From Collinsella intestinalis DSM 13280 (GTDB taxonomy: Bacteria > Actinomycetota > Coriobacteriia > Coriobacteriales > Coriobacteriaceae), in NCBI RefSeq assembly GCF_000156175.1, contig NZ_GG692711.1, positions 85,119-149,118 of the forward strand: a stretch of 64,000 nt of DNA, in the 5' to 3' direction. Below, one piece after another: positions 27,707 through 62,658 of this stretch (the first letter of the stretch is position 1; every line of letters starts with the position of its first letter). The position numbers were made by a program, and so were the translations under genes. Below the pieces are notes generated by a model. The model saw nothing but the letters and a program-made list of their open reading frames with translations, was not told where the DNA came from and made no database searches.

Positions 27707-27820
27707 GCAAGCCGCCTTTCTCCGAGTCGAACATGCGCACATTGTACCCGCACGTATGCACCGCGGATCCAAGTGTTTCGCAAACGGCAATTCGGCAAAC
27801 GAGCCCGTGCGCAGACTTAT

Positions 27821-28062
27821 AAGCGAGCCTCATGGGCTCGCTTCTTAATTTCGACTGGCGGAGAGCTGGGGATTCGCCGGGCGGCTGGCGCCGCCCTCCT
27901 CCCGCTGCGCGCCTGCGGCGCTTGCGGGCTTCGCTGGAAAACGGCTCCGCCGTTTCCTCAGCTCCGCACCCCTAATGGGGTTCGAATCCACGGAGCGGCA
28001 ACAAAAAAGCGAGCCTCATGGGCTCGCTTCTTAATTTCGACTGGCGGAGAGCTGGGGATTCG
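27821..28062 (-). repeat. tRNA-Ser(GCU)-associated element with 56-bp flanking direct repeats
   Basis: A perfect 56-bp repeat (27821-27876 and 28007-28062) contains the tRNA 3' end from the T-loop outward plus the tRNA terminator hairpin. Between the copies lies a GC-rich element whose ends are GGATTCG (27870-27876) and CGAATCC (27983-27989), i.e. the two halves of a T-arm in inverted orientation. The interior forms several stems. Bases 27901-27942 are identical, in reverse complement, to 62576-62617 beside the other tRNA-Ser gene. Confidence 0.85.
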
Positions 28063-28133
28063 AACCCCAGAAGGGCTTTGCGGCCCTTACTCGCTTAGCA
28101 GGCGAGCACCTTCGGCCTCTCGGTCAGCTCTCC
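28042..28133 (-). tRNA. tRNA-Ser(GCU)
   Basis: The minus strand reads GGAGAGCTGACCGAGAGGCC at the 5' end. The anticodon stem CTCGC/GCGAG encloses loop CTGCTAA (anticodon GCT), followed by a long class II variable arm, T-arm GGGGTTCGAATCCCC, acceptor GCTCTCC, discriminator G and encoded CCA. Confidence 0.97.
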
Positions 28134-28200
28134 GGAACAGCCAGACGATAATAACGCACTTCCGCGGGCTTGACCAGGGCGTGGAAGCAACAATTCAAAA

Positions 28201-29259
28201 CTAGCCCAAGAAACCGGGCACCACCACGAAGTTATCGCGGTGCGCTCGCACTTGGTTCCATTTGAATCCCTCGACCAAGTGTGCCGCGGAACACGGTGCA
28301 GCGTCGGGCTTTAGGCCCAGCGCATGCGCGAGGCGCCCCAAAAGCTCCTCGGGTGTGCCGAAGCGGCGACGCAGCTCCCTCATATCGAGATCGCGATCGC
28401 GCTTGGACAGACGCCGCCCGTCCGGCGCCACCAGCAGCGGAACGTGCGCATACTCGGGATGCCCATAGCCGAGCATATCCTGCAGATATAGCTGACGCGC
28501 CGTCGACCCCAATAGATCGCAGCCTCGCACAACCTCCGTGACACCCATGGCGGCATCGTCCACGACGACGGCGAGTTGGTAGGCAAAGACGCCGTCGCTG
28601 CGCCGCACGAGAAAGTCTCCGCACTCACGTGCAAGGTCCTCGACATGCACGCCATACGTGCGGTCGGTGAACCTCACCGTACGCGACGGCGAGGCTACAG
28701 GCATGCGAGGTGCCATGGCGAGCGCGTCCGAGCCATCCGCCGCAGGCACCCTCAGGCGCATCGCGGGCGGCCGGACAGCCGAACGCTCCGCCACCTGCTC
28801 AGGCGTTAGATTCCTACACGTCCCCGCATACACGGGCGTGCCGTCACTGGCATGAGGGGCACTCGCGGCATGGAGCTCGGCCCGCGTGCAAAAACAGGGG
28901 TATACCAGCCCAAGCGAATCGAGCCTCCGCAACGCATCTTCATAGAGGTCAAGCCGCTCGGTCTGGTAATACGGACCCTCATCCCAATCGAGCCCCAACC
29001 AGCGCAGATCGTCCATGAGCAACTCGGCCCACGGACCGCTGCGGGCACGGTCGTCCAGATCCTCGATGCGCAGCACGAGCTTGCCACCCTGGCTGCGAAC
29101 CGAAAGCCATGCCAAAAGCGAAGCCGCGACGTTCCCTAAATGCATGCGACCCGTCGGCGACGGGGCGAAGCGTCCAACGACCGGCCGCGCATCGGCCGCC
29201 CGCGCACCTTGCGAAAACACCCCGCGAACACCCTCGAGGTTTTCTGCCGATCCCATCAT
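28201..29259 (-). CDS. gluQ: glutamyl-Q tRNA(Asp) synthetase
   Basis: A 352-residue GluRS paralogue lacking the anticodon-binding domain. It glutamylates queuosine in tRNA(Asp). The HIGH-like motif is FAPSPTGRMHLGN and the KMSKS-like motif LSKRDRD. A zinc site of the GluQ type is visible as CFC...Y..GTC (YPCFCTRAEL, then YAGTCRNL). The start is uncertain: two adjacent ATGs (29259, 29256) follow the stop of a small acidic ORF by about 8 bp with a weak ribosome-binding site, suggesting translational coupling. The first ~35 residues are outside the conserved domain. Confidence 0.88.
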   Translation of the reverse strand: MMGSAENLEGVRGVFSQGARAADARPVVGRFAPSPTGRMHLGNVAASLLAWLSVRSQGGKLVLRIEDLDDRARSGPWAELLMDDLRWLGLDWDEGPYYQTERLDLYEDALRRLDSLGLVYPCFCTRAELHAASAPHASDGTPVYAGTCRNLTPEQVAERSAVRPPAMRLRVPAADGSDALAMAPRMPVASPSRTVRFTDRTYGVHVEDLARECGDFLVRRSDGVFAYQLAVVVDDAAMGVTEVVRGCDLLGSTARQLYLQDMLGYGHPEYAHVPLLVAPDGRRLSKRDRDLDMRELRRRFGTPEELLGRLAHALGLKPDAAPCSAAHLVEGFKWNQVRAHRDNFVVVPGFLG

Positions 29260-59280: not shown

Positions 59281-59357
59281 TGGTGCGGCGTACAGGATTC
59301 GAACCTGTGACGTTCTGATTCGTAGTCAGACCCTCTATCCAGCTGAGGTAACGCCGC
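59281..59357 (-). tRNA. tRNA-Arg(ACG), copy 1
   Basis: Minus strand GCGGCGTTACCTCAGCTGG start, anticodon loop CTACGAA between TCTGA and TCAGA (anticodon ACG), T-arm CAGGTTCGAATCCTG, acceptor complement ACGCCGC, then A and encoded CCA. ACG needs A34-to-inosine editing by TadA. Confidence 0.97.
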
Positions 59358-59495
59358 AACGCGTGGTATATATTGCCATTGCACCCCAGTGGCGTCAACC
59401 CACAATTTCAATTTTTTTCTGGCAGGAGGTCAGAGCCAAAAGCCGATGGCTCGGCAAGAGAAAAGCCCCCGTTTCCGGGGGCTCTCAAATTCGAC

Positions 59496-59572
59496 TGGTG
59501 CGGCGTACAGGATTCGAACCTGTGACGTTCTGATTCGTAGTCAGACCCTCTATCCAGCTGAGGTAACGCCGC
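59496..59572 (-). tRNA. tRNA-Arg(ACG), copy 2
   Basis: Identical in sequence to copy 1 over the whole tRNA, so the duplication is recent or kept identical by conversion. Confidence 0.97.
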
Positions 59573-62390: not shown

Positions 62391-62480
62391 GGAGAGATGG
62401 CAGAGCGGTTGAATGCGGCGGTCTTGAAAACCGTTGAGCACGCAAGTGTTCCGAGGGTTCGAATCCCTCTCTCTCCGCCA
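62391..62480 (+). tRNA. tRNA-Ser(UGA)
   Basis: GGAGAGATGGCAGAGCGG start, anticodon loop CTTGAAA between CGGT and ACCG (anticodon TGA), long class II variable arm, T-arm GGGTTCGAATCCC, acceptor complement TCTCTCC, G and encoded CCA. Confidence 0.97.
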
Positions 62481-62520: not shown

Positions 62521-62531
62521 TTGGCCGCATA

Positions 62532-62658
62532 GGGATTCGAACCCGCAAGGGTGCGGAGCTGAGGAAACGCGGAGCGTTTTCCAGCGAAGCCCGCAAGCGC
62601 CGCAGGCGCGCAGCGGGCCGAGGGCGGCCAAGCCGCCCGGCGAATCCCTCTCTCGCCA
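62532..62658 (+). repeat. tRNA-Ser(UGA)-associated element and copy of the tRNA 3' end
   Basis: It starts with an inverted T-arm (GGGATTCGAACCC, 62532-62544), continues with stems AAACGCGGAGCGTTT and GGGCGGC/GCCGCCC plus a GC-rich core, and ends with CGAATCCC and a near-copy of this tRNA's 3' end (CTCTCTCGCCA). Bases 62576-62617 are identical to the element next to tRNA-Ser(GCU) at 28 kb (reverse complement). Confidence 0.85.

Follow-up and report, generated by a model that had tools for sequence, protein, structure and literature searches.

A putative RtT-like element behind the tRNA genes of Collinsella with ends that fit the local tRNA

Why should the 3' end of a tRNA gene be present twice, with a GC-rich palindromic core held between the two copies, and how do the ends of that core come to match the tRNA beside which it lies? 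The question is raised by the tRNA-Ser(GCU) gene of Collinsella intestinalis DSM 13280, which falls within a stretch of 64,000 nucleotides (contig NZ_GG692711.1, positions 85,119 to 149,118) referred to here as the window. A preliminary description of the locus proposed either a tiny element that targets the T-loop of serine tRNAs or a duplication mechanism that acts on tRNA ends. On the evidence set out below we think it reasonably probable that this is an RtT-like tRNA-tail element, that is, a non-coding unit of ~185 bp that lies 3' of a tRNA gene, in most cases past the terminator, and rebuilds the tRNA tail.

Organisation of the element at the serine tRNA genes

The host gene, as called by ARAGORN, occupies 28042-28133 on the minus strand, and the features of the element described here lie on that strand. 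A repeat search gave a direct repeat of 56 bp, of which the proximal copy (28007-28062) runs from the T-loop through the acceptor 3' strand and CCA, across the spacer and into the terminator stem, with the distal copy (27821-27876) at a spacing of 186. The two copies are identical, and the perfect duplication of the tRNA 3' end and terminator stem that had been described is exact. In the sense of the tRNA, the spacer and the terminator (a hairpin and T-run at 28004-28032, seen as inverted repeat I3 and in the sequence) are followed by GTGGATTCGAACCCCATTAGGGG, by the hairpin core and by a second tRNA end. In this arrangement GGATTCGAACCCC is the reverse complement of the T-arm, and the last letters of the core, ...GGCGAATCCCC, are the T-arm 3' half. 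The inverted T-arm, recognised from the sequence and from local-match statistics, is found at 27976-27989, where it reads GGATTCGAACCCCA in the tRNA sense and TGGGGTTCGAATCC on the plus strand. Both ends of the element had been taken for inverted T-arm halves; the right end is indeed the T-arm 3' half, whereas the left end, in the tRNA sense, is an entire inverted T-arm.

The core is made up of a series of hairpins. Hairpin A (27969-27982, from the fold) is formed from the 3' part of the inverted T-arm, and hairpin B (27932-27964, GAGCTGAGGAAACGG...CCGTTTTCCAGCG) has the highest conservation of all the parts, as judged from alignment A1 and covariation. These are followed by hairpin C (27901-27928), with a conserved internal loop supported by alignment, fold and covariation, and by hairpin D (27879-27896), which is variable in sequence and recognised from folds. 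The unit closes at 27856-27876 with the copied tRNA end, which extends from the T-arm 3' half as far as CCA (sequence and repeat search). A covariance model, R1, which was made from 43 diverse elements, matches the complete element at 27856-27993 (G000:C2:112974-113111) with an E value of 1.6e-20. Automated ORF calls across the locus had been suspected of giving false proteins and, in keeping with this, the plus strand has an ORF of 143 amino acids (27773-28204) that spans the tRNA, the core and both tail copies in the antisense direction and is likely a false protein in the annotation.

A matching element had been reported at tRNA-Ser(UGA) (62391-62480, plus strand, ARAGORN), and it is present with that tRNA's own T-arm. 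Its inverted T-arm, AGGGATTCGAACCC, at 62531-62544 (plus strand, inverted repeat I2), is the reverse complement of the local T-arm in 14 of 14 positions, and the local tRNA 3' end is copied imperfectly, with 17 nt at 94% (62641-62658, plus strand, from the sequence and the repeat search). Model R1 matches this second element at 62529-62658 on the plus strand (G000:C2:147647-147776; E 1.2e-21). A 23-bp core probe allowing up to three mismatches found the two serine loci and no other place in the 64-kb window, the chance expectation being none, and two more remnants are found elsewhere in the genome, at tRNA-Lys and tRNA-Val. The flanks, as read, of the window's two tRNA-Arg genes and of its tRNA-Gln gene hold no element. 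Two identical tRNA-Arg(ACG) genes of the window (59281-59572) stand 215 bp apart from start to start, each with a similar upstream sequence, AATATATACCAC, and a near-identical terminator, and the pair is, to judge from its sequence, a recent tandem duplication.

Across the loci the unit consists of a tRNA 3' end (T-loop to CCA), a spacer with terminator, an inverted local T-arm and a GC-rich hairpin core, after which another tRNA 3' end follows. Units occur in tandem with a period near 180-190 bp, and the distal unit is often truncated, cut anywhere from the tail to hairpin C, which we read as distal erosion. The length of the direct repeat is variable, from the tail alone to tail, spacer and inverted arm together, and there is therefore no clean target-site duplication. 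Terminators may differ between the units of one array. At a tRNA-Ala(UGC) locus (L307, genome G124) two units of an array have differing cores with identical T-arm and tail, which could mean repeated use of the site or an exchange of cores. In many species an AT-rich conserved sequence, GTACTCATTTTTGCCATTTTTTGGCCACGG, comes after the final unit, at tRNA-Val and at tRNA-Glu alike; it was seen distal to the arrays at L006, L009, L021, L039 and other loci of the C. aerofaciens type.

Distribution, fit to the local tRNA and exchange between loci

Is the element confined to serine tRNA genes, or indeed to Collinsella? The matches listed by a pattern scan of genome contigs came from Collinsella, related Coriobacteriaceae and Enorma, together with four chance hits outside Collinsella (L064, L124, L132 and L141) that are without the tRNA architecture. 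By DNA search the core is present in 32 of 37 Collinsella genomes, the source genome counted. Most of the 141 distinct cores (127) lie behind a tRNA, either at 66-87 nt or, a unit further on, at 255-287 nt; two of the other 14 are chance matches, and most of the remaining ones are cut by a contig end or have a tRNA tail beside the core. Model R1 matches 42 of 45 Collinsella genomes, with at most 19 matches per genome and none in G014, G033 and G068. Within the family it also matches all four of the other genera sampled and, beyond it, 20 genomes from the order's other families, many of the latter weakly; a sample of 297 genomes from the phylum gave two matches outside the family, both weak and both with the full layout on inspection.

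Cores found away from tRNA genes and without T-arm ends would have spoken against a tie to tRNAs, as the preliminary description had pointed out; when 20 model matches were taken regardless of tRNAs, 19 were found directly behind a tRNA gene, beginning 47-66 nt after its CCA. Among the loci read, a tail copy and an inverted arm occur together at no fewer than 25 tRNA kinds, a count that measures breadth of range and not element frequency, given that the loci were mostly retrieved via the core. Related elements number in the hundreds in Collinsella and other gut Coriobacteriales. With elements at this many kinds, the suggested targeting of serine tRNAs is not borne out.

Some individual loci deserve mention. 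L080, in C. phocaeensis, has a core and an inverted T-arm but lacks a clear tail copy, and no tRNA was found in its vicinity; its core is probably a displaced remnant. In genome G361, the interval between tRNA-Leu(UAG) and a tail copy is a run of N (L276), and near-identical cores of another sequence type are found at a nearby tRNA-Arg and, on other contigs, at tRNA-Pro and tRNA-Asp. A search of viral contigs for an autonomous or viral version gave one match only, which was rejected as such an element and read instead as a prophage flank at tRNA-Lys.

Several draft contigs terminate in these repeats, as might be expected of an assembly artefact or a chance repeat. That explanation is refuted by the presence of elements in the single-contig genomes G061, G026, G028 and G124 and in dozens of independent genomes.

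The inverted arm tracks the T-arm of its own tRNA, for instance at Leu-CAG (GGACTTGAACCTT), Leu-UAA (GGACTCGAACCC), Ala-UGC (GGGATCGAACCCC), Lys-CUU (GGGGTCGAACCC) and Thr (GGAATCGAACCC). In 126 comparisons the local T-arm was the sole best fit to the inverted arm in 108 and joint best in 16 (124 of 126 in total), with a mean match of 12.48 out of 13 set against a maximum of 11.68 in 300 label shuffles. In some loci the inverted copy extends to 20-23 nt and takes in almost all of the tRNA 3' half. Of 125 tail copies, 107 agree with the tRNA at 15 or more of its final 18 bases.

Near-identical cores are present at different tRNAs of one genome, each with the local tail and inverted arm. This is seen in genomes from the order's other families, where the cores at Ser-CGA and Thr-UGU of G085 are 98% identical with tRNA tails at 61%, those at Leu-UAA and Gly-UCC of G103 are 96% identical with tails at 74%, and the spacer is common too in both pairs; the Ser-CGA and Leu-GAG cores of G077 are 94% identical (tails 67%) and the Arg and Glu cores of G099 90% (tails 78%). 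Because arm and tail fit the local tRNA while cores are 90-98% identical across the tRNAs of one genome, it would appear that cores spread and that their ends are refitted. A core found at different tRNAs, each with its own tail, also means that something moves or copies the core, and to this extent the earlier suggestion of a moving or duplicating element stands, with a unit built around the T-loop-to-CCA end. Duplication of a tRNA with subsequent decay of its body was rejected, since cores are common to unrelated tRNAs. The Ser-CGA copy of G085 has a distal tail of Ser-GCU type, and in C. provencensis (G034) a Gly-UCC element has a Thr-like distal tail.

How much of the distribution reflects spread and how much descent? 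Within the C. aerofaciens complex most copies are orthologous and have been inherited together with their tRNA, and much of the distribution is inheritance of this kind, by way of orthologous copies in closely related species. The preliminary description had held that identical elements at orthologous sites in distant species would indicate vertical descent; inherited orthologous copies are found within the complex, whereas over greater distances 48 of 58 cores are nearer to the core of another tRNA in the same genome than to that of the same tRNA in another species group, the groups having been assigned by hand. The empty sites that it proposed to look for do exist, in that tRNA-Ser(GCU) is occupied, empty or reduced depending on the species, with one or two units, none, the inverted arm alone, or other core sequences in the same layout. 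The sharing of cores could nevertheless reflect gene conversion between existing arrays and not new insertions.

RNA structure and comparison with RtT RNA

The consensus structure obtained with RNAalifold has a closing helix of inverted arm and tail copy, the small hairpin A, the long hairpin B and hairpin C with its conserved internal loop, and hairpin D is clear in single-sequence folds. Because the inverted T-arm pairs with the tail copy in this fold, the 3' end of a transcript would resemble an acceptor/T-arm helix and carry the CCA of the tRNA itself. In the alignment 97.3% of cells are paired and 12 pairs are changed on both sides. There are 84 double-change cells against 22.7 in shuffles (0 of 500 reaching this), a comparison inflated by related sequences; slid controls, which are free of that inflation and favour a fold drawn from the same alignment, are far lower. 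In 46 of 49 cases the fold has greater stability on the tRNA-sense strand than on the antisense strand, and this predicted bias suggests selection on RNA of that strand, although it may be due in part to the T-arm pieces themselves.

These features recall the RtT RNA (RF00391). The repeats at tyrT of E. coli K-12 have a period of 178 bp, with a unit that starts GGGGAAGGAT and ends ATCCTTCCCCCACCACCA, the latter being the tRNA-Tyr tail, and the annotated RttR RNA terminates at the copied tRNA-Tyr CCA. RtT units are present in 4708 of 5426 E. coli genomes, at 1-10 each. In Salmonella they are found at tRNA-Pro; there the ends are of Pro type and the spacer holds a terminator. Four plasmid-labelled records (L217-L219 and L221) were rejected as evidence of RtT on plasmids, being tyrT regions beside purU with ychJ and mostly narI too, and are probably chromosomal DNA. 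In both systems tandem units stand behind a tRNA and each closes with the tRNA's T-arm 3' half and CCA, while an inverted T-arm that opens the unit pairs with the tail copy around GC-rich hairpins; the same scheme of a closing helix around several hairpins is predicted for E. coli and Salmonella. The two differ in that the core sequences are unlike and the Collinsella copies stand at far more tRNA kinds per genome. The RF00391 model, which gives four E. coli units 133-138 bits, finds no Collinsella locus at E ≤ 1; its best score in the source genome is 13 bits, at another place and below the Rfam gathering cut-off of 45 bits, and an Rfam scan of the window and the loci returned at cut-off only tRNAs and SRP RNA. 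In the other direction, model R1 matches RtT units over their full length and in register, but the matches are weak (E 0.005-0.065) and owe part of their score to the tRNA pieces. The layout is the same as that of the RtT repeats, and the Collinsella elements are a much broader variant of that kind. A literature search on tRNA-tail phenomena outside RtT gave nothing useful.

The covariation and the sense-strand bias would also fit a cis-acting or sRNA function under selection, in which the element is immobile today, has spread by descent and gene conversion, and keeps its inverted arm because in read-through transcripts this arm pairs with either the tRNA T-arm or the tail copy. The orthologous copies that the C. 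aerofaciens complex has retained point the same way, as do the Northern signals reported in Actinobacillus pleuropneumoniae for RtT family RNAs near tRNA-Asn and tRNA-Lys (PMC4986893). We regard this as unlikely, given that the elements are patchy at orthologous tRNAs and three Collinsella genomes have no match, and that the spacers common to different tRNAs and the Thr-like tail of the C. provencensis element indicate transfer between loci. As the Collinsella element lies behind a terminator, its transcription is not assured.

Possible modes of movement

If the sequences are RtT-like tRNA-tail elements, how might a core reach a new tRNA? Its movement would involve opening of the tRNA at the T-loop and duplication of the tail, so that the tRNA remains intact. 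Duplication of the tail from a fixed starting point in the T-loop accounts for a whole tRNA and a local tail; the inverted arm needs more. The local T-arm may afterwards act as template for copying or correcting the arm. The two form an inverted repeat whose loop is very roughly 75-100 nt, and template switching, which can bring one arm into line with the other in such a setting, is a plausible means. Arrays would expand and contract through unequal crossing-over and erode at the distal end, and a read-through RNA might be cut by tRNA 3' maturation at the copied CCA, as the annotated ends of E. coli RttR suggest. No enzyme, excised form or transposition event for the element was seen in the genomes and loci analysed.

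An event in the T-loop brings to mind the tRNA-targeting integrases, which commonly cross over there. Could the element be a minimal integrative element, mobilised in cis by tyrosine integrases of this type, with the tail copies as attL and attR and the tandem units as accretion products? Its att-like direct repeat begins in the tRNA T-loop, units of one array can differ in their terminators, and a stretch of ~37 kb within tRNA-Ser(GCU) of C. stercoris (G028) has displaced the tail and the element of that tRNA. Cis-mobilisable elements and tRNA prophages share with the Collinsella element this type of direct repeat, the target segment and the tandem arrangement; they differ from it in that the element is ~185 bp long, is without an integrase gene, carries the target's own tail and has an inverted T-arm. 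A circle imports its own tail, whereas the elements have the tail of the new host tRNA even where the core is 98% identical, and integration leaves the inverted T-arm copy unexplained. A tyrosine integrase alone therefore fails for jumps between tRNAs, and we consider this origin decidedly improbable.

The C. stercoris stretch (2400795-2438488; L177, L049, L310 and L311) is itself read as a prophage, with a tyrosine-integrase-like ORF (L311, 3103-4233) adjoining a displaced tRNA end of 27 bp and a displaced element, and with lysis-type and LysM-like ORFs at its opposite end, all of these ORFs having been identified by eye. At this locus the segment from the T-loop to CCA does seem to be used for attachment. 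A prophage in the distal tail copy of G035 was rejected, as no integrase-like ORF was found in the 13.8 kb behind it when the ORFs were read by eye.

The GC-rich palindromic hairpins are REP-like, and like REP/BIME sequences with their RAYT enzymes the elements are short and present in many copies per genome, which raises the possibility of a REP/RAYT- or retron/group-II-type repeat moved by a Y1 transposase or a reverse transcriptase. A Y1 transposase is present in 39 of 45 Collinsella genomes. However, G034, with 11 elements, has neither PF01797 nor PF00078, the element-bearing G000, G001 and G026 are without PF01797, and PF00078 occurs in only 13 of 45 Collinsella genomes, being absent from 32. 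REP elements, moreover, lack a tie to tRNAs, whereas the Collinsella elements are bound to tRNA 3' flanks and have host-tRNA ends, even in genomes without a Y1 transposase. Either enzyme as a constant requirement was rejected, with elements found in genomes that have neither; past help is possible, and as an account of the elements this is very improbable. A further likeness is with the tRNA operons of Photobacterium, where duplicated tRNA-like repeats are pieces of tRNA repeated behind tRNA genes; unlike the Collinsella elements, they have to our knowledge no core common to different tRNAs.

What, then, would RtT-like tRNA-tail elements mean for the bacteria that carry them? We suggest, with rather less than even confidence, that the RtT repeats and these elements form one broad class of mobile RNA with ends taken from the host tRNA, whose 3' half is copied in both directions around a structured core. 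If this is true, one class could settle behind almost any tRNA gene without harm to it, using tRNA 3' maturation for its own RNA. The tyrT repeats of E. coli have so far been a local oddity of unclear role; the same design is found at 25 tRNA kinds, mostly in Coriobacteriales, and shared cores with locally fitted ends make of RtT a class open to comparative tests. In Collinsella genomes the element accounts for some of the false protein calls and probably for some of the contig breaks seen at tRNA genes. It also raises the questions of how ends that match each new host tRNA are acquired, and of whether the copied T-arm/CCA tails enter into the maturation of tRNA or provide prophages with spare attachment sites.
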